From Paradesertivirga mongoliensis (GTDB lineage Bacteria; Bacteroidota; Bacteroidia; Sphingobacteriales; Sphingobacteriaceae), in NCBI RefSeq assembly GCF_024436395.1, contig NZ_JAFMZO010000002.1, positions 806,001 to 870,000 of the forward strand: 64,000 bases of DNA, read 5' to 3'. Every line of letters begins with the position of its first letter. Within the stretch, counting starts at the first letter, position 1. The notes beneath the pieces were generated by a model. The model was not told where the DNA came from and did not search any database. It saw nothing but the letters and a program-made list of their open reading frames with translations. Shown here in pieces: positions 15,782 to 30,655 of this stretch. A program made the position numbers and the translations under genes.

Positions 15782-15842
15782 CTTATTCGATTGAGATCTG
15801 GCTGGTCGTAGCTCAAGCTACCACCAGCCCCATCAACCTCTC

Positions 15843-16118
15843 TCGCCTTGGTTCGTGCCCCCACGAACCAATTCAAGCTCACCGTAAATCCTTTAAAAAG
15901 GAAAATGAATTATTTAACCGTCATAGTACTTCGTCGAAGAATACTAATAACCTGAAGGCTCAATTTCATACTGGTTGGCAGTCCAGAAATAAATTTCACC
16001 CCGCTCAATGTAAGATTTCCGCTTTCATTCGAAGACGTTATATCCATGAACTGAAATAATACAGTAATTAGGGATGGTTGGATATGCTGGTTCGTGGGGA
16101 TACGAACCAAGGCGAGGG
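15843..16118. repeat. Element A, copy 1 (MITE-like, about 275 bp)
   Basis: Starts CTCGCCTTGGTTCGTG and ends with the inverted sequence CACGAACC-like, GGCGAG, so it has terminal inverted repeats of about 28 bp. Each terminal repeat is itself a palindrome (GGTTCGTG ... CACGAACC). The same interior, including AACCGTCATAGTACTTCGTC, recurs at 19341-19571 and 21482-21748. No transposase is encoded; a 74-codon minus-strand frame inside looks accidental. No target-site duplication was clear. Confidence 0.8.
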
Positions 16119-16145
16119 TGTGAGTCAGACACACTTTCTATAAAT

Positions 16146-16174
16146 GTTCGTAGAGCCCTGAGAACTCTACGAAC
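16146..16174. repeat. Palindrome B, copy after element A
   Basis: GTTCGTAGAG (16146-16155), loop of 9, CTCTACGAAC (16165-16174): perfect 10-bp arms. It sits 10 bases after the stop of the HPF-like gene on the minus strand and could also act as its terminator. Other copies are at 18751, 21749, 23702 and 24079. Confidence 0.75.
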
Positions 16175-18240: not shown

Positions 18241-18429
18241 TTACATCATCATAACGACCGCTTACACAGCCATAATGTCCGGTTACATTATCATAATGCG
18301 CATTTACACAGCCATAATGTCCAATTACGTTACCATAATGCTCGCTTACACGGCCATAATGTCTGGTTACAGTAACATAATGCGCATTTACACAGCCATA
18401 ATGTCCGATTACAACATCATAATGCCCAT
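18241..18429. repeat. Nine-unit 21-bp tandem repeat
   Basis: Nine consecutive 21-base units, consensus ttacannnncataatgnnnn. Units 2, 4, 6 and 8 share ttacacrgccataatgtc and alternate with more variable units (3 and 7 end gcgcat), so there is a 42-bp higher-order period. Because 21 is a multiple of three, all frames are periodic; one gives a heptad of the form Y-x-x-I-M-x-x. There are no unrelated spacers between the units, so it is not a CRISPR. Confidence 0.92.
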
Positions 18430-18720
18430 TACATTGACCCTTCCTGACCCTTCCTAAAAAAACCTGACAGATTTCGGGTTAAAAACTAGATTATGTTTAC
18501 AGGATCCTTTATCAATCCTGAATCAATTTTACTATTAATTTTTGTTTTACGGTGATGGCTTGACAAGATTTTTTTTATTCCTGTTTTGACTTGTCACCTG
18601 CTCTCCTCTTTCCTGAATTATAAGACAGATTCTTTCCCATTTACTGTTTTTTCCTGACAGTGATTATCTTATTCCTGAAATAGCTTGACAGAGCAGTTTC
18701 AGCCCGGAGAAAGGCTCCAC
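18430..18720. other. T-rich stretch with irregular TTCCTGA / TGACAG words
   Basis: No gene. The words ttcctga and tgacag recur irregularly (around 18465, 18580, 18610, 18650 and 18670) in T-rich sequence, giving the impression of a worn tandem array next to the 21-bp array. I see no promoter or gene in it. Confidence 0.4.
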
Positions 18721-19341
18721 GCCTTGGTTCGTGGGGACACGAACCAAGGCGTGGAGCCCTGCGGAACTCTACGGACAGTTAGTGATTGTAATAACACGAT
18801 CCTCTTTTCCGCTCATAGCCGCGGATTGGCCTAGTAACTTTATTCAAGTGGTTTATTGTTTTTAAGCGGCTTTCATGAGCTCCTCTGGTCGGTTTCCTTG
18901 ATGAAAAGTCACCAAAAATCAAGAACAAAAATATACTCAGCGGTATTTATTCAGGTTGTTTAATGTTTTCTAAGGCTTTCATGAGGGCTACGCCGTTTTG
19001 TTCATCCCACCGCTCGCGCTTCGGTTACTTGCTTCAATTTGTTGCTGTAAGTTTTCATGGGTCCTGTGGTTGCCTGCGAGACGTTAATACTGGAAGGGCC
19101 ACTACTTTACCTCAGTTGATAAAAGAACGACAATAACCTAATTCCGTCATTGCGAGGCTTTAGCAGTGGACCGTGCCCAGGAAGCCGTGGCAATCTCCTA
19201 CCGACAGAGACGTCCTTTTCGTTTCTATCGGCAGGAGATTTCTCCTATCGTCGAAATGACGAAGGGTGTGATGGTTTCGTTTTCATAGGTTCTGCGCGCT
19301 CTCCTTCTCCCCTATAACCCACATCGCCTCGGTAGCCTTCC
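18721..19341. repeat. Composite repeat 1: A-palindrome, B, R, D, end of gene g
   Basis: In order: a solo palindrome of element A (GCCTTGGTTCGTG, 4-base loop, CACGAACCAAGGC, 18721-18750); palindrome B (18751-18779, one arm mismatched); element R (about 18780-19110, recognised by ctcatagccgcggattggcc and cccaccgctcgcgcttcgg); element D (19117-19268, ends cgtcatt ... aatgacg); a short linker; and the last bases of a copy of gene g (19312-19341) cut off where element A copy 2 starts. R here has two related inserts of roughly 50 bp (about 18843-18892 and 18950-18996), both with gctttcatgag, absent from the copy at 21778. Confidence 0.75.
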
Positions 19342-19571
19342 TCGCCTTGGTTCGTGTCCACACGAACCAATTCAAGCTCCCCCGTAAATCCTTTAAAAAG
19401 GAAAATGAATTATCTAACCGTCATAGTACTTCGTCGAAGAATACTAATAACCTGAAAGGCTCAATGTAAGATTTCCGCCTTCATTCGAAGATGTTATATC
19501 CATGAACCGAAATAATAAGGTAATTAGGGGACGGCTATGGTGGTTCGTGGGGACACGAACCAAGGCGTGGG
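19341..19571. repeat. Element A, copy 2 (internally deleted)
   Basis: About 230 bp with the same inverted ends as copies 1 and 3. Compared with them it lacks about 45 bases between two gctcaat words, as expected from deletion between short direct repeats. It joins directly to the truncated copy of gene g on its left. Confidence 0.8.
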
Positions 19572-19699
19572 AGGAATTGGTGACTTCTCAAACCTAAACG
19601 CATAGTTAGCGTCATTGCTATCTGTCGTTCGACATACACTGCGGAACTGTCGAACAGTGGCAGGAAGAGAGGTACTGCTAAGTGCAATACCTCTCTGGC

Positions 19700-20470
19700 T
19701 TATTTTAAACTGCTTCTGGCATAAAAACTCATGGCTTTGTTTAAAAAAGCAGCGAATTCGGGTTGAGATTTACCTTCAATTGTAGTAAACCGTTCATCCT
19801 GTAAGTACAAATTCCCAAGGCCCTCATAAGCATCGGCTTGCTTATCTTCTAAGAATTGAGTTCCCCAAAACTTACGGATACTGTTGTAGTGCCTGGCAAT
19901 TTGTTCCTGAACCTCGTCACTTTCCGGGCTTTGTTCTCTGAGAGAAAATAGAGTTAGCCAAATTTCTCCGCTTTCTGCCTTTAACTCTTCGAAGCCATCT
20001 TTGCCTAAACTTCGTAAACTGTTTTCAGAGTGCTCAATTTGTTCTTGCCCATACTTTTCTATGGCTTCTTTTCTGTAAGTCTTTGCCTGTTCTTTTGGCA
20101 AGCCTTTGTATAATTCTTCGTGACTTAACATAGTGTTTCCTTTTAAATTTAAAATCGTTTTATCGATGGTCGCAAGTAAGGTAGTAATTCTGCTTCTACG
20201 AGCCGCAAGGGCTTCTTTATGACTTTCAAGCGCCTTGATCAAATTGAAAGAAGGATTATCAAGAATGTTTTTAATTTCCTGCAAAGGGAAATCCAATTCT
20301 TTGTAAAAGAGAATTTGCTGCAATCTTAATAATTCCTTCTCGCCGTATAACCGGTACCCAGCAGAAGTTCGGGTTTCCGGCTTAAGAAGTCCATTTTGGT
20401 CGTAAAGGTGGAGTGTGCGCACACTTACACCCGCCAGTTTTGCAAGTCGCTTTACCGAATAGCCTTTCAT
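19700..20470 (-). CDS. MerR-family regulator with TipAS ligand domain
   Basis: From the ATG at 20470 the protein has 256 residues and starts MKGYSVKRLAKLAGVS, the normal start of a MerR helix-turn-helix; an upstream ATG nine codons earlier is ruled out by the promoter overlapping it. HTH residues about 3-70, a coiled-coil dimerisation helix about 75-110, then a TipAS-type drug-binding domain with the RKEAIEKYG and KFWGTQFLED landmarks. Family members (TipA, Mta, SkgA) sense thiopeptides, drugs or redox stress and switch on by twisting DNA between over-spaced promoter elements. No obvious drug-efflux gene adjoins, so it may regulate only itself or distant genes. Confidence 0.9.
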   Translation of the reverse strand: MKGYSVKRLAKLAGVSVRTLHLYDQNGLLKPETRTSAGYRLYGEKELLRLQQILFYKELDFPLQEIKNILDNPSFNLIKALESHKEALAARRSRITTLLATIDKTILNLKGNTMLSHEELYKGLPKEQAKTYRKEAIEKYGQEQIEHSENSLRSLGKDGFEELKAESGEIWLTLFSLREQSPESDEVQEQIARHYNSIRKFWGTQFLEDKQADAYEGLGNLYLQDERFTTIEGKSQPEFAAFLNKAMSFYARSSLK

Positions 20471-20490
20471 GCCTACATCTTTTATAAATG

Positions 20491-20523
20491 CAAACATAGG
20501 CTATGACGTAAGGTAAGAGTCAA
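20491..20523 (-). promoter_or_regulatory. Over-spaced promoter and operator of the MerR gene
   Basis: On the minus strand TTG (20521-20523), a 22-base spacer and TATGTTTG (20491-20498). The spacer is longer than the usual 19-21, as expected for MerR-type activation, and it contains the imperfect dyad TGAC-N11-GTCA (20504-20522). The -7 box lies 20 bases before the ATG at 20470. Confidence 0.6.
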
Positions 20524-20746
20524 GTACTTTTTTAAAATAATTTTTAAACAGGCTTTTACAAGGCTCGGGGTTGGGATCTCTTTCGATTAAGAGACAAGAT
20601 TGCCGAGTGCTCAATCCAATATAAACACGTCAGTGCCGACTCGATCGGCAATCGTAAAGCCCTATACCCGAATGAAGCCTTAGGATTCCTGCCTGCGCAG
20701 GAATGACGACCGACATGATGGTTTCGTTTTCATGGGCTCTCTCCTC

Positions 20747-20968
20747 TTACTCCCCAATAACACACGTCGCCTCGGTAACCTTCTCCAGCTCTTCTAAAAA
20801 GTATAGCATATCTACGGGGCTGATGCTCTCGCGGTGGCTGTAACCGCTTAAGGCCTGATGGAGTACTTCTCTTAACAGGCTGCGGCATTCTGTAAGGCTC
20901 CAGGTTTGGAAGAGGTTTTGATGACCTACGAAATATGGCAACAGCGTGGGTATAGATGGCTTTAACAA
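20747..20968 (-). CDS. Small repeat-associated protein g, copy 1
   Basis: About 73 codons. From FQTWSL onward it is nearly identical to the copy at 24573-24851: the shared block includes ECRSLLREVLHQALSGYSH and MLYFLEELEKV. It looks helical and amphipathic with no signal or membrane segment. The N-terminal 18 residues differ from copy 2, so the true start or the integrity of this copy is uncertain. Downstream on its strand is the 3' end of element D (about 20683-20722). I recognise no family. Conservation of the block between two copies suggests either coding constraint or recent duplication. Confidence 0.5.
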   Translation of the reverse strand: MLKPSIPTLLPYFVGHQNLFQTWSLTECRSLLREVLHQALSGYSHRESISPVDMLYFLEELEKVTEATCVIGE

Positions 20969-21086
20969 AACAGTTTATGTTTGTGAAGACAGGACCAATG
21001 CCTGGAGTTAATCTGTCTCAATTGTCATTGTCGGACCATTTGATTTCTGTATATTGCAAATACAAAACTCTTATTAACCATATGTT

Positions 21087-21440
21087 ATGAAAATTAACCG
21101 CATCTTCTTCTCAACTGTTATTGTGGCTTGCATCGGAACTCTAGGTCAAGCTAAAGCACAATCAAACTTTAATCCTGAATACAAACTAGACCGCGTTGTT
21201 TATAACATTTCAGATGACAAAATCAGAGAAGTGCTTGAAAACGAAAAGGAGAAGACAGCATTTAAAAAAGCCCAATCATTGAACAAGCAAACCTTTAAAA
21301 AAGAAATAGAACGGATTGAAAGTTTGGTAAAACTTAAGGTAAATCCAAACTTCGATAAGAATCAAATCAAGTTTCAGGTCGATACTACATCAGTAAAGAA
21401 CCGGTTTTCAGTCGTGACCTTAATTGCAAAGAACGACTGA
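21087..21440 (+). CDS. Small secreted protein of unknown function
   Basis: A 117-residue protein with a clear Sec signal (MKINRIFFSTVIVACIGTLG, then cleavage after AKA-Q near residue 25). The mature part is lysine- and glutamate-rich and probably helical (residues 45-80), ending in a beta-like segment. No cysteine in the mature part and no family recognised. It stands alone between repeat elements and is more A+T-rich than the housekeeping genes, so it may be a recent acquisition. Confidence 0.55.
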   Translation: MKINRIFFSTVIVACIGTLGQAKAQSNFNPEYKLDRVVYNISDDKIREVLENEKEKTAFKKAQSLNKQTFKKEIERIESLVKLKVNPNFDKNQIKFQVDTTSVKNRFSVVTLIAKND

Positions 21441-21481
21441 AAGCTTGTTAGTTCATTGAGACACGAATAAAGGCGGATAAC

Positions 21482-22092
21482 CCTCGCCTTGGTTCGTGTC
21501 CCCACGAACCAATTCAAGCTCCCCCGTAAGCCTTTAAAAAGGAAATGAATTATCTAACCGTCATAGTACTTCGTCGAAGAATACTAATAACCTGAAGGCT
21601 CAATCTCATCCTGGTTGCATCCAGAAATAAATTTCACCCCGCTCAATGTAAGATTTCCGCTTTCATTCGAAGATTTTATATCCATGAACCGAAATTATAA
21701 AGTAATTAGGGATGGCTATGGTGGTTCGTGGGGACACGAACCAAGGCGGGGAGCCCTGCGGAACTCTACGGACAGTTAGTGATTGTAATAACACGATCCT
21801 CTTTTCCGCTCATAGCCGCGGATTGGCCTAGTAACTTTTCCTTGATGAAAAGTCACCAAAAATCAAGAACAAAAATATACTCAGCCGTATTTTTGTTCAT
21901 CCCACCGCTCGTGCTTCGGTTACTTGCTTTAAATTGTTGCTGTATGTTTTCATGGGTCATGCGGTTGCCTGCGAAGCGTTAATGCTAGATGTCAACGGGT
22001 TAACTTCAGTTTGATAAAAGAACGACCGCAACATAATTCCGTCATTGTGAGGCTTGGTAGGCCAGTGCGCAGGAAGCCGTGACAATCTCCTT
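21482..22092. repeat. Composite repeat 2: element A copy 3, B, R, truncated D
   Basis: Same order as composite 1: full element A (21482-21748), palindrome B (21749-21777), element R (about 21778-22000, without the two inserts of copy 1), and the first 80 bases of element D (22011-22092), which stops at caatctcc where a nested palindrome begins. A plus-strand frame of 84 codons across it is an artefact of the repeat. Confidence 0.78.
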
Positions 22093-22093
22093 T

Positions 22094-22206
22094 GCTAGCG
22101 CGAGCTTGTAGCTCGTGCTTTTGGCTTGATTTACCTAAACAAGGTACGAGCTACAAGCTCGCACCAGCACCGATCCGATAAACCGTTACTGGATGCTCGC
22201 GCTAGC
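22094..22206. repeat. Nested palindrome with two mutually exclusive stems
   Basis: Inner arms GCGAGCTTGTAGCTCGT (22100-22116) and ACGAGCTACAAGCTCGC (22146-22162) are perfect over 17 bases. Outer arms GCTAGCGCGAGC (22094-22105) and GCTCGCGCTAGC (22195-22206) are perfect over 12. The left arms overlap by six bases, so only one stem can form at a time. The sequence interrupts element D. REP-type elements are the likeliest explanation. Confidence 0.85.
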
Positions 22207-22255
22207 GGGGGGATTTACGACGACGGCTCCCTTATATTAATTCGACACTACTGTA

Positions 22256-22606
22256 CTACTTCCTGGGTCTGAATGCCGGAATTTGGTTTTTATCCATTAG
22301 CTCACAAGCCCAGTCATTTAGTTGTGTTATGAATGGAACTAAAAGGCTGCCCGATGCTGATAAGGAATACTCAACACGAGGAGGCACTTCCTGATAAACC
22401 TTCCGGCAGATTAGTTCATCGCGTTCCAATTCACGTAAGGCTTGAGTCAGCATTTTTGGAGACACGTTTACCAGATACCTTCGCATCTCTCCGTACCTGA
22501 TGGTGCCGCGACTTAAAAGCCATAGTATCCTGCCCTTATACTTCCCCCCGATCCGTTGAAACGCATAATCTACGGGACATTGAGCTGAAAGGGATTCTTT
22601 TTCCAT
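22256..22606 (-). CDS. HxlR-family transcriptional regulator
   Basis: A 116-residue winged-helix regulator. It has the family's early cysteine (Cys10 in SAQCPVDYAF), the IGGKYKGRILWLLSRG start of the helix-turn-helix and the diagnostic ISxKMLTQALRELERDEL (here VSPKMLTQALRELERDEL). HxlR proteins often sense electrophiles through the conserved cysteine and control a neighbouring oxidoreductase. It is transcribed away from a quinone-oxidoreductase-type gene, with the shared region holding an operator-like dyad, which fits that arrangement. Confidence 0.92.
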   Translation of the reverse strand: MEKESLSAQCPVDYAFQRIGGKYKGRILWLLSRGTIRYGEMRRYLVNVSPKMLTQALRELERDELICRKVYQEVPPRVEYSLSASGSLLVPFITQLNDWACELMDKNQIPAFRPRK

Positions 22607-22643
22607 ATTTTTTCTATCTGATAATCAACAATAGTATAGTTTT

Positions 22644-22702
22644 AGTATGTAGGTTTCCAAAAGGTGCATACTTGACTGATGTATACTGCAAGTATAAGTT
22701 TG
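22644..22702 (+). promoter_or_regulatory. Promoter of the oxidoreductase gene with an operator-like dyad
   Basis: TTG (22672-22674), a 20-base spacer and TAAGTTTG (22695-22702) fit the Bacteroidota promoter consensus. Just upstream the inverted words AGTATG (22644-22649) and CATACT (22667-22672) end at the -33 element, a position suited to an HxlR dimer that also controls its own divergent gene. Confidence 0.65.
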
Positions 22703-22722
22703 TTGAAAAAATAAAGCAAATC

Positions 22723-23679
22723 ATGAAAGCAATAATTCTAAATCAAACCGGAGGTGTCGAAAACCTCATAGTCAGCGAAGTGCCTGCACCAGAATTAAAG
22801 CCACAGGATGTTCTTGTGCGTGTGAAGGCAATCAGCATAAATCCCGTTGATGCTTATTTACGGGCCAACGAATCGGCCCATCCCCATTTTCTTCAAACCG
22901 GGCCTGACGAAAAGCCCATCATTCTTGGATGGGATATTTCCGGGGAGGTGAAAAGTGTGGGCAGCTCAGTAACTAATTTCAAGGAGGGAGACGAAGTTTT
23001 CGGAATGGTAAATTTTCCCGGTCACGGCAAAGCCTACGCAGAATACACATCCGCACCGGCTTCTCAACTAGCCAAAAAGCCTGTATCCGTGTCATTCGAA
23101 GAAGCGGCCGGAGCCACATTAGCGGCGCTCACGGCATATCAGTCGCTGGTAATTTATGCCCAAATTAAGGCAGGCGACAAAGTGCTTATTCACGCGGCCG
23201 CAGGCGGTGTAGGCCATTTCGCGGTACAGCTGGCGAAAGCCTTTGGAGCATATGTAATCGGCACTGCCTCATCCGCAAACAGAGATTTTGTGTTGTCTTT
23301 AGGCGCAGACGAGTTCATCGACTATCAAAATGAGAAATTCGAAGAAATCGTAACCGATGCCGATATTATTATCGACTCGCAATATGGAAATCATGTGGAG
23401 CGGTCTGTGCAGAGCCTTAAAAAGGGCGGACGCTTGATAAGCTTGCTAACACCTGTTTATGAAGAACTACAAACTGCACTTACAGAAAAGCATGCATTTT
23501 ATCATCAGCTTCTGGTTCAGTCGAATGGCGAGGATATGCAAGCATTAGCAGCCCTGATGGAGAGCGGAAAGCTAAAAACCCATGTTTCTAAAATAGTTGA
23601 GTTTGGGCAGATGGACGAAGCGCATCGTCAAATTGAAACCCGGACAACCCGTGGTAAAGTTATTGTAAAGGGGATTTAA
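22723..23679 (+). CDS. NADPH:quinone-oxidoreductase-type MDR protein
   Basis: About 318 residues from the ATG at 22723; a longer reading from 22672 would run through the promoter's -7 box and is rejected. It is a medium-chain dehydrogenase/reductase without catalytic zinc: GroES-like part with PVDAYLRANES and GWDISGEVKSVG, then the NADPH-binding Rossmann motif HAAAGGVGHFAVQLAKA. Typical reaction: NADPH-dependent reduction of quinones or enones, in the cytosol. Regulation by the divergent HxlR protein is likely, so it probably belongs to an electrophile- or quinone-stress response. Confidence 0.9.
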   Translation: MKAIILNQTGGVENLIVSEVPAPELKPQDVLVRVKAISINPVDAYLRANESAHPHFLQTGPDEKPIILGWDISGEVKSVGSSVTNFKEGDEVFGMVNFPGHGKAYAEYTSAPASQLAKKPVSVSFEEAAGATLAALTAYQSLVIYAQIKAGDKVLIHAAAGGVGHFAVQLAKAFGAYVIGTASSANRDFVLSLGADEFIDYQNEKFEEIVTDADIIIDSQYGNHVERSVQSLKKGGRLISLLTPVYEELQTALTEKHAFYHQLLVQSNGEDMQALAALMESGKLKTHVSKIVEFGQMDEAHRQIETRTTRGKVIVKGI

Positions 23680-23701
23680 CCGGTAATTGGAGTTAATATT
23701 G

Positions 23702-23738
23702 CTGTCCGTAGAGATCTTGCGCTTCGCTCTACGGACAG
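23702..23738. repeat. Palindrome B, perfect copy upstream of the RAYT remnant
   Basis: CTGTCCGTAGAG (23702-23713), a 13-base loop and CTCTACGGACAG (23727-23738): perfect 12-bp arms, the best-preserved copy of palindrome B. It lies 42 bases before the RAYT remnant; another copy follows that remnant at 24079-24105. It starts 22 bases after the oxidoreductase stop and may end that transcript. Confidence 0.85.
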
Positions 23739-23780
23739 TGTAGATTGTATAGAAGGCACAAGTACTTTGCGCTCTAGGCT

Positions 23781-24044
23781 GTGGCTGCATACTTGCGCCA
23801 AACTGAGGGGATCTTCAAGAAAGCAGGCGAGAAAAATAACCGGAACAATGAATACCAATTTTGGCAACAAGATAATCATCCGGTACAATGTGATACGAAT
23901 GATACATTGGATTCAAGGGTGAATTACCTTCATGAAAACCCGGTAAGAGCTGGTTTAGTAAGAAATGTGCAGGATTACGTCTATTCTTCTGCTATTGACT
24001 ACTATACTGAGGAGAAAGGATTGCTTGAGATGGATTTCGTGTAA
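23781..24044 (+). pseudogene. REP-associated tyrosine transposase (RAYT) C-terminal remnant
   Basis: The 87-codon frame, opening at a GTG, matches the end of IS200-like RAYT proteins: FKKAGEKNN, then EYQFWQQDNHPV, then YLHENPVRAGLVRNVQDY and VYSSAIDYY with the usual short acidic tail. RAYTs of this group are normally about 150-200 residues; the N-terminal part with the HUH metal site and the catalytic tyrosine is missing, so this is dead. Flanking palindromes of type B on both sides are what is known for RAYT genes, whose enzymes bind and cut REP sequences. An intact copy elsewhere could still mobilise the palindromes in this window. Confidence 0.85.
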
Positions 24045-24078
24045 GCGAGTCAGAGACTCTTTTTTATTTGTGAATCCG

Positions 24079-24560
24079 TAGAGCCCTGCGGAACTCTACG
24101 GACAGTGAGGATTGGTGATTTGTAATACACGATCTTCTTTCCGCTCATAGCCGCGGATTGGCCTAGTCCTTTTTTCTTGATAAAAAAGTACCAAAATACT
24201 TAGCGCAGCGATCTCATTTATGCCTTTTTACAACAATAGACTACACATAAATAAATCAAGAACACAACGAATGCTCAGCCGCCGTTCTGTTCTTCCCACC
24301 GCTCGTGCTTCGGATACTTGCTTTAAATTGTTGGTGTATGTTTTCATGGGTCCTGCGGTTGCCTGCGAAGCGTTCATATTAGATGCCTAACTGTTTTTTA
24401 ACTTAGTTTAATAAAAGAACGACAATAACATAATTCCCGTCATTGTGAGGCTAGGTTAGATTTGTGTGCTGGAGCCGTGACAATCTCCTCTCGACAGAGA
24501 CGTTCTGTTCGTTTTCATAGGTTGGAGATTTCTCCTATCGTCGAAATGACGTGTGGTATG
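24079..24560. repeat. Composite repeat 3: palindrome B, R, D
   Basis: Palindrome B (TCCGTAGAG ... CTCTACGGA, 24079-24105), element R (about 24106-24400, with an insert of its own around 24198-24254), and complete element D (24405-24555, with cgtcattgtgaggct at one end and cgtcgaaatgacg at the other). Gene g copy 2 follows directly. No element A is attached to this copy. Confidence 0.78.
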
Positions 24561-24572
24561 ATGGTTTCGTTT

Positions 24573-24851
24573 TCATGGGTTCTGTTCTCTGCCTCTCTCC
24601 CTCTCCCCAATAACCCACATCGCCTCGGTAACCTTCTCCAGCTCTTCTAAAAAATAAAGCATATCTGCGGGGTTGATGCTCTCGCGGTGGCTGTAGCCGG
24701 ATAAGGCCTGATGGAGGACTTCTCTTAACAGGCTGCGGCATTCTGTAAGGCTCCAGGTTTGGAAGAAGTTTTCGATGAAGGGGAAGGGATTGGGGATTTC
24801 CTCGGAGGTGAGGTGGCAGGGTTGGGAATGTTGGTTTAAAGATGCGTCCAT
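24573..24851 (-). CDS. Small repeat-associated protein g, copy 2
   Basis: Up to 92 codons; the block from FQTWSL to VTEAMWVIGE is shared with the copy at 20747-20968 and the last part with the stub at 19312-19341. The copies' stops differ: copy 1 ends just after VIGE, while here the frame runs 12 codons longer. N-terminal residues (MDASLNQHSQPCH and a proline-rich EIPNPFPF) are unique to this copy. It is probably a small cytosolic helical protein. In every copy element D lies immediately downstream of it. No family recognised; coding status is moderately supported. Confidence 0.5.
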   Translation of the reverse strand: MDASLNQHSQPCHLTSEEIPNPFPFIENFFQTWSLTECRSLLREVLHQALSGYSHRESINPADMLYFLEELEKVTEAMWVIGERERGREQNP

Positions 24852-24944: not shown

Positions 24945-25187
24945 GTGGAAGCCAATAACAATATAGAAGCGATAGAGCAATATATCATTGATGCTGTAAG
25001 ACAGAGAAGAACTGCTTTGAAAATCTCACAGGAGAAATTGGCCAATGAGCTAAACGTTTCTAAAGGATTTATTGCAAACGTAGAAAACTCAAACTACCGC
25101 GCTAAATATAATTTTAAGCATCTTAATGAATTAGCAAAGATTCTTAAGTGTTCGCCGAGGGATTTCTTACCCGAACAAGCACTGTAG
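24945..25187 (+). CDS. XRE-family helix-turn-helix protein
   Basis: An 80-residue protein, one HTH domain: IIDAVRQRRTALKISQEKLA, followed by NELNVSKGFIANVENSNYRAK (recognition helix around residues 38-48) and a final AKILKCSPRDFLPE. It starts at a GTG, since an overlapping ATG two bases upstream meets a stop after seven codons. It could control itself through the upstream palindrome. It is convergent with the large ATPase, with 22 bases between their stops, so it is a neighbour rather than an operon partner; such small regulators commonly accompany acquired defence genes. Confidence 0.85.
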   Translation: MEANNNIEAIEQYIIDAVRQRRTALKISQEKLANELNVSKGFIANVENSNYRAKYNFKHLNELAKILKCSPRDFLPEQAL

Positions 25188-25209: not shown

Positions 25210-27798
25210 TTAATTATAGGTCGTCTGAAATGCTTTCAATCTCGCTTTAAAGCCATCTTTCCAGTTAGAGTAGTCAGTTATATCTTGTTCCATTACACTT
25301 TTTCCCGGTAATAGTGGAATTGTAGACGTTCCTCCATCATGTTCCGTTATTGAATATTTTCCAAATAATTGCAACAATAAGTCAACATCGTTTTGCTCGG
25401 TTACTATATAACTCGATAAATTCCCCTTCTTTAGATGAATGTTTTTTGAAAATCGTTCATATGTTTTATTGGAAAGAATCTCTTCAACTGAACGCTCCAA
25501 CAGCATTCTAAATCTTTTTCGTGCTGAATCTAATTTTGTTTCTCTTCCGTGCGAGTCTGTTATTTGCAATGAGTCGTGCTCTCTTAAAATTCTGCGTATA
25601 GAATCTATTCTTTCCTGCACATTTTTGGCTAAAAAAGGAATTTCATCTGTTACTATCCCACTAATGCCATTATACTTATCAATACCAATAACATGACAGT
25701 CATCTAAATTAACTGATTTTTGGGTGTCGATTAATAATCGCAAAAAAGATAAGTCGTGGGTCAGAACAACAATTTGTCTATCCTGGGATAACTCTACAAT
25801 TTTGGTCGCTATTAAATCTCTATAATCCATATCTAAAGAAGTCACAGGATCATCAAAAATTATAGAATTTTTTCGACCATCTATTGTACATTCAGCAAAA
25901 AAGTTTGACAAGGCAACAACTTTTTGTTCTCCCTCACTCAAGATAGAGTTAATAGAATCTTTTATGCCGTTTAAACTACATTTTTGGTATGTGCTTCCGT
26001 GAGACGTCCTTGTTTTTGATAACAATACTCTAGTCGCTAATTCCCTATTAAAATAACTTAAGTGATTTATAAATTCCTGGTGTTGTAGATTGACCGCTTG
26101 ATCTTCCATTAAATCGCCGATTTTCTTTGAAACAATACTAGTATTTAATTGCGATTGGCAGCTGTTAACCCAAATTTTGTATTTGTATTCGTCAAAATAT
26201 CGTAGAATGATAGTTTTGTTATTAAATAGAAATTCTTTAACTGTTAATTCGTTATGTTCCGTTATGTAGGCATTTCGATTTTGAAGTAAGCCCCTATTTT
26301 GTTGAATTTGTGCATCTATGTTCAATATTAAACTATTGATTGTTGAAGATAAAATTTTACGATTGATAGGTATTTCTGAGCCATTCTGCAAATAATTCAC
26401 TAAGGAAGTCTTCAATTCAGATATTGATTTAGTAAATTCTTTGTATTTATCTGGAAAGTCTTGGATATATTGGGTTATTTCTTTGAAGTTTTCGTATGGT
26501 GGAACATTCAATGAATCATATAAATTTTTCTTTTGTTGAATTTCTCTCTGAACCGCACTCAATTGAGTTGATACATCATTCAAAATAAACTGATTAAACC
26601 CTTTCAATCGTTCTTGAGCGATATCGTCCAAATCCTGTTGACACAACACACACTTTTCTAAGGAGCCTAGTGAAGGAAAATTTTGCCCGTCAGACATTTC
26701 ACTGGTATGCGCGAAATTTTTAGCAGCTTCCCAAAGTGTTCTCCAAGGATTAGTACCGAAACCTTCAATAGTATTTAAGTTCTTTAAATCATTTGCTGCA
26801 ATGCTGTATGCATGCTTAATACTTTCATATCTAACTCGTAAACCTTTAATTTCCTCAATAATTGGGTCACTAAAACTTCCTTCTATCCTTTGAAATTGTT
26901 GAACATAATTTTCAATCCGAGATTTAAGTCCTGATAGATTTTGTATATTTTGTTGTGGGTTTTGAGTATTAATCAACGTTAATAGCTCCTGTTTCCTGTC
27001 GATATTGGTTTGGTCAAATTGAATATAATTGTCAATATCAGATTTGGAATAAGTTTCAATACTAGAATACCATTGAGCAGTAGTTGTTAAATTTAAAGAT
27101 TGATTTATGGCCGGCTTGCTCGTATTATAAACTGCTATTTCAGAAGTAAGAGCTTGAGAAATTAGATTCAACACTGAAATAAGTGTTTCCAATACATCTA
27201 TTCCTATAGGCTTATATTCAGTAGGATTCTCACTATTTATATATATCCCGGCACAATCAGTATCGAATACAAATATAGAACTGAGCGATGGATGAGTAGG
27301 TGAGTTCTCTGTCCATTGAAAATTTATGGTTGAACCATTTTCCTCAATTACAAAATCAACTTTTTGCTGGTTAGTTGAGGGAGTGAAAACGTTTTTCTTC
27401 AAGTTAATACTTGGATTTCTACTCCAACATAGTTTTTTTAATATCTTAGAAAAACTCGATTTGCCTGAGCCATTATTGCCATACACAACAGTTAAACCCT
27501 CACTGGAAAAATTTAAATGCCCTTGATTATATAAAGCACAAATGTTTACGGGATTACTAATGCTTATTATTTTAGGATAAACAGCTCCTGCAGTTGAAAG
27601 AGTTGGGATATGGGTGCTGTTTAAAGGAATTGGATTCAGTGTTATACCATTCTGGCCATTTTCTTTTTTTAGTAGTTGCACTAATTCATCAATATCATTT
27701 TGAGTTATTGAGGAACTGGATATTATTCGTCTTAATGCATCTTTAATATAGTTAGGTCTGTTTTGTGACCAATTTAATATTTCTTGGTAAATGGACAT
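25210..27798 (-). CDS. SMC-like AAA_13-type ATPase with zinc-hook CxxC
   Basis: About 862 residues from the ATG at 27798 (MSIYQEILNWSQNRP is the natural start; a longer reading adds an unlikely 25 residues). ABC-type ATPase halves lie at the ends: Walker A GNNGSGKSS near 105, signature LSEGEQK near 616, Walker B SIIFDDPVTSLD near 640 and H-loop VLTHD near 672. The middle is long coiled coil with CVLCQQ near residue 382, the position of a Rad50- or RloC-type zinc hook. The C-terminal 140 residues (with RKRFRMLLE and EHDGGT) could be an effector. Relatives include phage-defence ATPases and RloC; the anticodon-nuclease residues were not identified. Base composition is far lower than that of its neighbours (sampled lines 25-30% G+C), a sign of transfer. 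Confidence 0.8.
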   Translation of the reverse strand: MSIYQEILNWSQNRPNYIKDALRRIISSSSITQNDIDELVQLLKKENGQNGITLNPIPLNSTHIPTLSTAGAVYPKIISISNPVNICALYNQGHLNFSSEGLTVVYGNNGSGKSSFSKILKKLCWSRNPSINLKKNVFTPSTNQQKVDFVIEENGSTINFQWTENSPTHPSLSSIFVFDTDCAGIYINSENPTEYKPIGIDVLETLISVLNLISQALTSEIAVYNTSKPAINQSLNLTTTAQWYSSIETYSKSDIDNYIQFDQTNIDRKQELLTLINTQNPQQNIQNLSGLKSRIENYVQQFQRIEGSFSDPIIEEIKGLRVRYESIKHAYSIAANDLKNLNTIEGFGTNPWRTLWEAAKNFAHTSEMSDGQNFPSLGSLEKCVLCQQDLDDIAQERLKGFNQFILNDVSTQLSAVQREIQQKKNLYDSLNVPPYENFKEITQYIQDFPDKYKEFTKSISELKTSLVNYLQNGSEIPINRKILSSTINSLILNIDAQIQQNRGLLQNRNAYITEHNELTVKEFLFNNKTIILRYFDEYKYKIWVNSCQSQLNTSIVSKKIGDLMEDQAVNLQHQEFINHLSYFNRELATRVLLSKTRTSHGSTYQKCSLNGIKDSINSILSEGEQKVVALSNFFAECTIDGRKNSIIFDDPVTSLDMDYRDLIATKIVELSQDRQIVVLTHDLSFLRLLIDTQKSVNLDDCHVIGIDKYNGISGIVTDEIPFLAKNVQERIDSIRRILREHDSLQITDSHGRETKLDSARKRFRMLLERSVEEILSNKTYERFSKNIHLKKGNLSSYIVTEQNDVDLLLQLFGKYSITEHDGGTSTIPLLPGKSVMEQDITDYSNWKDGFKARLKAFQTTYN

Positions 27799-27873
27799 GG
27801 AATATAATTGTAATAGTTTCGGTTTTATAGGCGCTTGCAACTCATCGTTAACTCGACATATACAGGTTAACAT

Positions 27874-28310: not shown

Positions 28311-30032
28311 ATGAGTATCGGCCTTTCCGAACAAGAAATATTACGCCGTGAGGCATTGCTGGAGCTTCGTAAACTGGGCATTGAGCCCTACCCTGCCGAG
28401 GCGTACGAAGTAAATGTTACCGCTAAGGATATACACGATAATTACGAGCGGGATAAGACATCGTATAAGAACATCAGCTTTGCGGGCAGAATAATGACGC
28501 GCCGGATTATGGGCAGCGCCAGTTTTGCCGAGTTGCAGGACAGTACTGGTCGTATGCAGGTGTACTTGAAGCGCGATGATATTTGCCCGGGCGAGGACAA
28601 GACCTTATACAACACGGTGTTTAAGAAGCTGATGGATATTGGCGATTATGTGGGTGTGAAGGGCTATGTGTTTACTACGCAGACGGGCGAAATTTCTATC
28701 CACGTGAGCGAGATGACGCTGCTGGCTAAATCGCTGAAGCCGCTGCCGGTTGTGAAGCGTGATGATGAGGGCAATATTTATGATGGCTTTACGGATCCGG
28801 AGATGCGCTACCGTCAGCGGTATGTGGATTTGACGGTTAACCCGGATTTAAAACAGATTTTTATGAACCGCAGCAAGGTGATTAACACCATGCGGTCTTA
28901 CTTTGATAACCAGGGCTGGATGGAGGTGGAAACACCGATTCTTCAGCCTATGCATGGCGGGGCGGCGGCGCGTCCGTTTGCTACGCACCACAATACGCTG
29001 GACATGCCTTTGTTTTTGCGCATCGCCAATGAACTTTACCTGAAACGCTTAATTGTTGCGGGTTTTGACGGGGTGTATGAGTTTGGCAAGATGTTCCGCA
29101 ACGAGGGTATGGACCGCACGCATAACCCGGAGTACACCGCAATGGAAATCTACGTGGCTTACAAGGATTATGTGTGGATGATGGCCATGGTGGAGGAGTG
29201 TTTGGAGAAGGTGGCTGTGGCGATTCATGGTTCTTCTAAGGTACCGGTCGGCGAGCATGTGCTGGAATTTGCCGGTCCGTACGAGAAGCTGACGATGTTT
29301 GAGTCGATACAGAAATATACCGACATTGATGTTTCGGCCATGAATGAGGATGAGCTGCGTGAGGTTTGCAAGAACCTGAACATTGAAACGGACCCGAGCA
29401 TGGGCAAGGGTAAATTAATTGATGAGATTTTTGGCGAGAAGGTGGAAGCAAACCTGATTCAGCCGACATATATTACTGATTACCCGGTAGAGATGACTCC
29501 GCTGGCGAAAAAGCACCGAAGCAAAGAGGGACTAGTAGAACGTTTCGAGCTGTTTGTGATGGGTAAAGAGATTGGTAACGCCTATTCTGAGCTGAATGAT
29601 CCGATTGATCAGCGGGCGCGTTTGGAGGATCAATTGGTGTTGGCGGGCAGAGGTGATGATGAAGCGATGGCGATGGATGAGGATTTCCTTCGTGCGCTGG
29701 AATATGGTATGCCTCCTACGGCTGGTTTGGGGATTGGTATCGACAGGTTGGTGATGCTGATGACGAATCAGAGTACGATTCAGGAGGTGTTGTTCTTTCC
29801 GCAGATGAGGCCTGAGAAGAAAGCGAAGGTTGCTTCGGTGGAGGATTTTACGGAGATTGGGGTTCCGGCGGAGTGGGTTCCGGTGTTGATGAAGATGGGA
29901 TTTAATAGTGTTGAGGAGTTGAAGGCGGGGAATCCGAATAAGGTGTTTAATGATTTGGGGGGGATGAGGAAGAAATTGAAATTAGAGATTGGGATACCGA
30001 GTAAGGAGGATGTGGATAAGTGGTTTAAATAA
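28311..30032 (+). CDS. lysS: Lysyl-tRNA synthetase, class II
   Basis: Charges tRNA-Lys with lysine. The 573 residues comprise an OB-fold anticodon-binding domain (about 60-160, with GRIMTRRIMGSASFAELQD) and a class II catalytic domain: motif 1 around 195-215, motif 2 with the FRNEGMDRTHNPEYTAMEIY stretch, and motif 3 GLGIGIDRLVMLM near 480. The last 70 residues after the catalytic domain (EDFTEIGVPAEW to the end) form a helical extension, absent from E. coli LysS (505), that is known in Bacteroidota. The matching tRNA-Lys gene is at 52353. A decayed copy of the extension's DNA lies at 30554-30655. Stable stem-loop follows the stop. Confidence 0.97.
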   Translation: MSIGLSEQEILRREALLELRKLGIEPYPAEAYEVNVTAKDIHDNYERDKTSYKNISFAGRIMTRRIMGSASFAELQDSTGRMQVYLKRDDICPGEDKTLYNTVFKKLMDIGDYVGVKGYVFTTQTGEISIHVSEMTLLAKSLKPLPVVKRDDEGNIYDGFTDPEMRYRQRYVDLTVNPDLKQIFMNRSKVINTMRSYFDNQGWMEVETPILQPMHGGAAARPFATHHNTLDMPLFLRIANELYLKRLIVAGFDGVYEFGKMFRNEGMDRTHNPEYTAMEIYVAYKDYVWMMAMVEECLEKVAVAIHGSSKVPVGEHVLEFAGPYEKLTMFESIQKYTDIDVSAMNEDELREVCKNLNIETDPSMGKGKLIDEIFGEKVEANLIQPTYITDYPVEMTPLAKKHRSKEGLVERFELFVMGKEIGNAYSELNDPIDQRARLEDQLVLAGRGDDEAMAMDEDFLRALEYGMPPTAGLGIGIDRLVMLMTNQSTIQEVLFFPQMRPEKKAKVASVEDFTEIGVPAEWVPVLMKMGFNSVEELKAGNPNKVFNDLGGMRKKLKLEIGIPSKEDVDKWFK

Positions 30033-30114: not shown

Positions 30115-30520
30115 ACCCGCTCATTGCCGCGGGAATGGCTAGTCCTTTTGGCTTGAGCCCAAAAGGACCAAAAACCCAAGGCAACAACGAAGCTTCAGCC
30201 GCACAGGGCAAAACTCCCGGCCCGCCGTTCTTGCCAGCCCAACGCGCGGGCATTCTCTTAGGTTGATGGGGCTGGATTAAACGACGCTTTACTGACTAGA
30301 TGCAAAAACTGACCGAAAACCTGATGCGCTTTACTTTTACGGTAGAAGGACAACTACCCTAACAAAGGACAGACAACCCAAACATCTTTCCCGACGGCAA
30401 CCGAAGCGCGAGCGATGGGATGAACAGAAATGCGGCTGAGCTTATTTCTGTTCTTGATTTTTTGGTACTTTTTTATCAAGAAAAAAGGACTAAGCCTGCC
30501 CGGCTATGAGGGCAAAAGGT
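30115..30520. repeat. Two diverged, oppositely oriented copies of element R
   Basis: At about 30117-30200 there is a worn direct copy (gctcattgccgcgggaatgg, then ctagtccttttggcttgag and accaaaaacccaag). At about 30395-30520 there is a better-preserved copy in the opposite direction (caaccgaagcgcgagcgatg, atgaacagaaa, tcttgattttttggtac, ctatgagggc). The two face each other around the sequence 30200-30395, in which I see no gene. Proteins read from them, in either direction, are repeat artefacts. Confidence 0.65.
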
Positions 30521-30553: not shown

Positions 30554-30655
30554 TGTTGATGAAGATGGGATTTAATTCGGTGGAGGAGTTGAAGGCTGGG
30601 TATCCGAATAAGTCCCAAAGGGCCTCCTTTGGAGGTGTTTAATGATTTGGGGAAT
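30554..30655 (+). pseudogene. Duplicated scrap of the lysS 3' end
   Basis: Bases 30555-30612 repeat lysS 29884-29942 almost exactly (the codons for LMKMGFNSVEELKAGNPNK), then a 22-base insert tcccaaagggcctcctttgg plus ag forms a short hairpin (CCAAAGG, CCTTTGG), then the repeat resumes with gtgtttaatgatttgggg (lysS 29943-29960). It has no start codon and is next to an inverted element R, so it probably arose in a repeat-driven rearrangement. Confidence 0.85.

Follow-up and report, generated by a model that had tools for sequence, protein, structure and literature searches.

Why do the same palindromic sequences follow one another in the same order at three places within 6 kb of a bacterial chromosome? 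The question is raised by Paradesertivirga mongoliensis (Sphingobacteriaceae), in whose genome (G000; 4.55 Mb in 8 contigs, given below as C numbers) we analyzed a window of 64,000 nucleotides from contig 2 (NZ_JAFMZO010000002.1, positions 806,001 to 870,000). Positions without a contig number are those of the window. A preliminary description had divided the repeated sequence into elements A, B, R, and D and a gene, g, and had taken A-B-R-D-g for a single modular unit. Our analysis indicates that the locus is probably a decayed REPtron, that is, the C-terminal remnant of a repetitive extragenic palindrome (REP)-associated tyrosine transposase (RAYT) gene together with its REPs, inside a mosaic of independent palindromic repeat families like that of bacterial interspersed mosaic elements (BIMEs), from which a block was copied locally. 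The parts of this mosaic would be REP1 doublets (A), the RAYT's own REP2 (the start of B), a multihairpin element formed by the rest of B and R (here called B-R), CGTC-type palindromes (D), and gene g.

A RAYT remnant and its palindromes

B-R and D, in part with g, do recur in constant order at three places (composites 1 to 3; Table 1), with A ahead of two of them, and all element copies named in the preliminary description were found, at the same coordinates or a few bases away. In a whole-genome search, composite 3 matched composite 1 at 18991-19340 (80%; E = 2.8e-86), composite 2 at 21860-22091 (84%; E = 1.7e-62), and the D/g copy at 20702-20924 (86%; E = 3.8e-75), and E values of 2.8e-86 to 1.7e-62 among the composite copies exclude chance. 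The structured, mostly noncoding, palindromic nature of the parts and their turnover were also borne out. Some assignments had to be amended: a full A copy at 19341-19570 had been missed; composite 1 starts with the REP1 palindrome, but the rest of A is absent there; A is present at 15843-16174, but the B assigned to it (16117-16174) is just a REP2-like hairpin; and the supposedly worn and inverted R at 30115-30520 is indeed an inverted arrangement, but of two B-R copies, the right one of which is among the best preserved of the genome.

The RAYT remnant lies just upstream of composite 3. It matched the NCBIfam family REP_Tyr_transpos (NF047646) with an E value of 2e-12 over positions 90 to 146 of the 146 positions of the model, and the gene is reduced to its C-terminal half. 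Because it is a fragment, the remnant scores below the whole-protein cutoff of NF047646, whereas the intact RAYTs of the same genome at C1:913k and C1:925k (the latter at C1:925370-925921, 183 amino acids) score above it. The HuH motif is found in these two proteins (MSNHVH / MSNHIH), and the remnant is not a complete gene with this motif. Hairpins of the REP2 type stand on both sides of the remnant, and REP2 is also present at C2:686.5k and C4:420.6k; the search with the REP2 stem pattern covered about 276 kb of sequence. The intact REP2 of composite 3, TCCGTAGAG-CCCTGCGGAA-CTCTACGGA (also written CCGTAGAG-CCCTGCGGAA-CTCTACGG), shares its loop CCCTGCGGAA with the hairpins of the two intact RAYTs, the stems of which differ (GTTCGACATG/CATGTCGAAC); from the common loop, REP2 is the RAYT's REP type. 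On inspection of the sequences, neither REP1 nor REP2 had GT[AG]G immediately at its foot, where canonical REPs have GTAG or GTGG. For RAYTs of subclass 2.6 (RAYT group 5) of Bacteroidetes, "atypical secondary structures" without GT[AG]G have been described beside the genes (PMC6006769). The locus resembles this subclass in the WQ and Y-H-NP motifs of the remnant, in the hairpins on both sides with copies elsewhere, and in the missing foot; it differs in that only a C-terminal remnant of the gene is left, in that B-R, D, and g are added, and in that B-R does not flank RAYT genes as a hairpin in the majority of the loci tested. REP2 fits the description of subclass 2.6, but B-R does not. Elsewhere in the family, RAYT genes at L183, L184, L166, L182, and L177 are bordered by 23-nucleotide palindromes whose stem varies per gene (GGTNCGAGCTTGTAGCTCGNACC, AGCACTCGTTGCAAACGAGCGCT, GGTCGGGATTTGTAATCCCGTCC), and these are candidate REP families of subclass 2.6.

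The end of A is fused to the loop of REP2 at the identical point in composites 1 and 2, whereas in composite 3 REP2 is whole. Since they share one A/half-REP2 breakpoint, composites 1 and 2 are most simply duplicates of each other, and composite 3 would most simply be the more ancestral arrangement. Because of this common breakpoint, and because g never leaves the locus or its counterpart in the sister genome (G001; same genus; syntenic locus on contig C68), local duplication of a block next to the RAYT remnant is the best reading of the constant order, and transposition of an invariable unit is not. Downstream of the RAYT, the block REP2-B-R-D-g would have been copied locally by recombination, and one copying event would have joined a REP1 element into the middle of REP2. 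The copies are now separated by different genes, and the repeats therefore likely offer homology for additional deletions, duplications, and exchanges of genes; the locus is hypervariable, its gene content differing between the two species. The short REPs themselves probably spread by single-strand DNA processing via relatives of the RAYT.

Independence of the parts

The single modular unit with defined ends was not upheld, since A, B-R, and D were each found apart from the others elsewhere in the genome. Independent copies genome-wide were what the preliminary description had named as speaking against its unit, and for these three elements they were largely found. A is about 230 to 276 bp long with a REP1 palindrome at both ends; in full length it is present only in the window, and REP1 (GCCTTGGTTCGTG..CACGAACC) occurs singly or paired at many sites of the genome, mostly at C2:655-707k. 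Inverted REP pairs make up A as well as the insertion at 22091-22172, as in BIMEs and REPINs (inverted REP doublets), and the block resembles these in being a mosaic of unlike palindromes; A is, however, longer, and REP1 is without the foot motif. The 50-kb stretch C2:655000-707000 (L060 to L062) is unusually dense in REP1 palindromes and D-like repeats and is possibly another hypervariable island. B-R (from about 24134) is found without A, D, or g at C1:934310, C1:934765, C3:60293, C3:1009975, and C4:141799 and in the doublet at 30115-30515.

CGTC-tagged palindromic repeats have been reported in Bacteroidetes (PMC3733652). The palindrome of D has the same kind of ends (CGTCATTGCGAGG..TCGAAATGACG in copy 1, with a variant in copy 3), but D is longer, has an irregular middle, and seems to be present in few copies, only a handful of D-like matches being found in the genome at E ≤ 1e-3. 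D-like sequence occurs without g at C2:705-707k, once directly adjoining a piece of A.

Gene g had been regarded as possibly coding, and this was supported. The g of composite 3 differs from the closest sister copy by 6 bases over 46 codons, with a nonsynonymous divergence (dN) of 0.009 and a synonymous divergence (dS) of 0.199; therefore, the copy found here has the appearance of a real gene. Relatives of g in other genera are proteins of mostly 370 to 550 amino acids with 37 to 41% identity over about 75 amino acids, and a scanned relative of 491 amino acids contains the HEPN domain PF05168. Lying on the minus strand, g is transcribed towards D. DNA similar to g is present only at this locus and at the syntenic sister locus, where three of four copies contain stop codons, and g is tied to the repeats by position alone. 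An array of 21-bp units (TTACACAGCCATAATGTCCGG type, two variants alternating) lies at 18241-18428, just upstream of composite 1, and a similar array adjoins a g copy of the sister genome (G001 C68:55839-56047).

If A-B-R-D-g instead formed a single module, mobile or functional, in which a small gene precedes a long structured noncoding RNA with palindromic ends, and if its partial copies had decayed, then the constant order in three copies, the purifying selection on g, and the order D-g-B-R at the end of the sister contig (C68:57.5-57.9k) would find a ready explanation. CGTC-type motifs on the element strand are, moreover, 16 to 21 times denser beside B-R than across the loci as a whole (0.35 to 0.45 versus 0.02 per kb), but this background is mostly coding and the enrichment is in part due to both being intergenic. 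The occurrence of B-R, A, and D without each other, the stop codons in the sister copies of g, and the shared half-REP junction, which points to duplication, argue against one module. In the genome searches, no such unit was seen outside the syntenic locus. We consider a single module improbable; a loose association of B-R with CGTC-type palindromes such as D remains. The idea of one transposable unit was rejected on the independent copies of A, B-R, and D, and an integron-like cassette array was rejected on the mixed orientation of the interspersed genes and the lack of relationship between the palindromes.

Three observations weigh against a decayed REPtron within a mosaic of independent repeats. 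B-R and CGTC-type palindromes are nearer to each other than expected from the whole-locus background, other genera included, so that a partial real unit keeps some room. Of 22 RAYT-type genes, only 1, at a single G002 locus, has B-R within 1.5 kb, the remnant in the window being a further case. Finally, neither a target duplication nor an empty site was seen; for the empty site, the copy at C3:1009975 was searched for an orthologous site in the sister genome only, without result because its flanking genes find no match there. B-R was also found beside none of 20 IS200-type genes within the same distance, and B-R as the REP of a RAYT was rejected on these counts.

B-R, a covarying repeat of the family

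While the composites themselves reflect ordinary REP/BIME turnover, B-R, a by-product of their analysis, is more valuable. A covariance model of this element of about 120 nucleotides, built on four copies, recovers a strongly covarying, family-wide repeat that is absent from Rfam. It was present in 28 of 61 sampled Sphingobacteriaceae genomes with up to 51 copies per genome, in 88 of 121 genomes of an order sample (all listed genomes belonging to the same family), and in 33 of 198 genomes of a phylum sample, with weaker scores outside the family; the 165 negatives argue that the model is specific. Copy number differs strongly within genera, for example, 38 versus 0 within one genus. Copies from one genome resemble each other more than copies from different genomes do (0.65 versus 0.56; reached in 0 of 300 label shuffles), to which kinship and composition contribute.

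Compensatory variants are found in all three helices of the model. P1 is formed by CGCCC/GGGCG or CCGC/GCGG around the constant loop TCATAGCC, P2 by TTTTTT/AAAAAA, TTTTC/GAAAA, TTTCC/GGAAA, or TTTTGG/CCAAAA around the loop CTTGAN, and P3 by GAACAGAAAT/ATTTCTGTTC or GGCAACAACG/CGTTCTTGCC. Among 97 copies, 95.0% of the pair cells were standard and 26 of 30 pairs had two-sided changes, with a covariation score of 0.467 compared to 0.112 in shuffled and 0.038 to 0.070 in slid controls; because P1, P2, and P3 guided the alignment, these figures are biased towards them. A fourth helix, between the loop of P2 and a downstream strand, is absent from the model yet 91.4% paired, and its last pair is UA in 31, AU in 26, and CG in 9 copies. 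P2 directly adjoins this helix, without a spacer, and the pairing may form a pseudoknot or represent a competing hairpin. Folding of copy 2 as single-stranded DNA yielded exactly P1, P2, and P3 (z = -3.5), and other copies gave z values of -0.7 to -3.2.

Insertable loop expansions (TTTATTGTTTTTAAGNGGCTTTCATGAG.. and CTTAGCGNAGCGATCTCATTTAT..) are seen at equivalent places of different B-R copies (18848-18892, 18950-18998, and 24197-24238 in the window and 7652-7876 in L089). B-R also stands upstream of a helicase gene (hrpB-like start FNPY), apparently the same one, in G000, G001, and G047, a genome of a different genus (L065 6511-7344, L088 2754-3569, and L154 7490-9674), which is a conserved place for a patchy repeat. 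In G124 (L205 to L228), B-R is part of mosaics with TGTCATGCTGAGCCTGTCGAAGCA upstream and a noncoding repeat of about 150 nucleotides (GGCTGCTGTTTATTGCAGCAACT..) downstream; a gene was considered for the shared downstream sequence and rejected when it proved to be another noncoding repeat.

DNA repeat or RNA

B-R showed no preferred orientation: in codirectional gaps, 23 copies run with the genes and 27 against them, and the types of region follow the background. G·T made up 1.65% of the pair cells and A·C mismatches made up 1.24%, whereas stems of tRNAs in the same loci had 5.6% G-U (5 of 90, a small sample). The random orientation, the few G-U pairs, and the similarity within genomes favor a DNA repeat over an RNA gene, without proving it, and B-R behaves like a repeat of the REP/BIME type. 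It would spread at the DNA level as a structured repeat, and a single-stranded, hairpin-recognizing step would most likely be involved here too. Our tentative view, which we hold with less than even confidence, is that B-R is a self-amplifying multihelix DNA repeat of Sphingobacteriaceae and some other Bacteroidota, with a conserved P1 hairpin, P2 with its loop-downstream pairing (pseudoknot or switch), and P3, and that it is mobilized by an enzyme that recognizes the single-stranded fold and is distinct from the known RAYTs. If mobile as single strands, B-R would be a REP-like element of far more architecture than known REPs. In the 61 family genomes, B-R and a Y1 transposase were both present in 17, B-R only in 11, Y1 only in 7, and neither in 26, a comparison confounded by kinship; G047 has 20 B-R copies and no Y1 match. 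The patchy copy number brings a search for the enzyme within direct reach of comparative genomics.

An RNA reading, in which B-R is transcribed into a structured molecule with a regulatory or trans-acting role and is repeated by happenstance, would be consistent with strong covariation in four helices, one of them a pseudoknot or competing pairing. Candidate structured RNAs of Bacteroidetes such as Pedo-repair (PMC2864571) are likewise intergenic, multihairpin, and covarying, but B-R differs from them in its lack of strand preference and few G-U pairs, and no Rfam 15 family reached the gathering score with B-R. Together with a copy number of 0 to 51 within one family, this makes an RNA unlikely. 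Matches to Rfam microRNA families (E values of 0.0015 and above) were rejected as chance matches to perfect hairpins. Apparently, B-R has not been described before, no description having been found in an incomplete coverage of the literature.

Still less likely is an origin of B-R as miniature inverted-repeat transposable elements, in which the inverted B-R halves would serve as the terminal inverted repeats of a DNA transposon of the DD(E/D) or another double-strand type. Several inverted pairs with a length of 0.4 to 0.56 kb do exist (30115-30515 in the window, G000 C4:141799-142344, and G001 C13:3114-3569), but they come in both +/- and -/+ order, and no target duplication was seen. Furthermore, most copies are single, and compensatory changes preserve their internal hairpins, a feature for which terminal inverted repeats have no need.

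Features of the window and neighboring genes

Table 1. Positions of the RAYT remnant, palindromes, B-R copies, and gene g in the window
Feature	Position	Strand	Remarks
A, first full copy	15842-16117	+	about 276 bp; inverted REP1 hairpins GCCTTGGTTCGTG..CACGAACC at its bounds
REP2-like hairpin GTTCGTAGAG-CCCTGAGAA-CTCTACGAAC	16146-16174	+	from sequence
Solitary REP1 palindrome, start of composite 1	18720-18751	+	14-bp stem as single-stranded DNA; -18.5 kcal/mol; z = -8.2
REP2 right half	18755-18778	+	left arm missing; breakpoint as in composite 2
B-R copy 1	18807-19096	+	core 18807-19030 with two loop expansions, then R tail
D, copy 1	19116-19294	+	CGTC-type palindrome CGTCATTGCGAGG..AATGACG at 19145-19261
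g stub	19299-19340	-	
A, second full copy	19341-19570	+	internal deletion
D end and g copy with different N terminus	20683-20968	-	open reading frame 20747-20968
A, third full copy	21483-21751	+	91% to first copy
REP2 right half	21752-21775	+	junction common to composite 1
B-R copy 2	21804-21991	+	core 21804-21925 (119 bits), then R tail
D, copy 2, cut short	22011-22091	+	
REP doublet (GCGAGCTTGTAGCTCG / CGAGCTACAAGCTCGC) closing D	22091-22172		type as RAYT-flanking hairpins of sister genome, L184
REP2-type hairpin upstream of RAYT remnant	23702-23738		
RAYT C-terminal remnant, WQ and Y..NP motifs	23781-24044	+	57% to intact RAYT C1:925370-925921
Intact REP2 hairpin, start of B in composite 3	24075-24102	+	
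B-R copy 3	24139-24385	+	core 24139-24319 with one expansion, then R tail
D, copy 3, full	24408-24590	+	CGTC-type palindrome variant at 24438-24551
Gene g, 92 amino acids	24573-24851	-	purifying selection against sister-species copy; relates to domain of HEPN proteins
B-R copy 4, left half of inverted doublet	30115-30259	+	after lysS-like gene
B-R copy 5, right half of doublet	30395-30515	-	145 bits

Downstream of the composites, a regulator of the Cro/CI type (24945-25187) adjoins a gene for an 887-amino-acid ATPase of the AAA_13/SMC type (25210-27873), which is possibly a defense gene. It is followed by a gene at 28311-30032, which we take to be lysS-like. The 3' end of the latter (29884-29942) is partly repeated (90%) at 30554-30612, beyond the B-R doublet, as if the doublet and the duplication of the gene end had arisen together.

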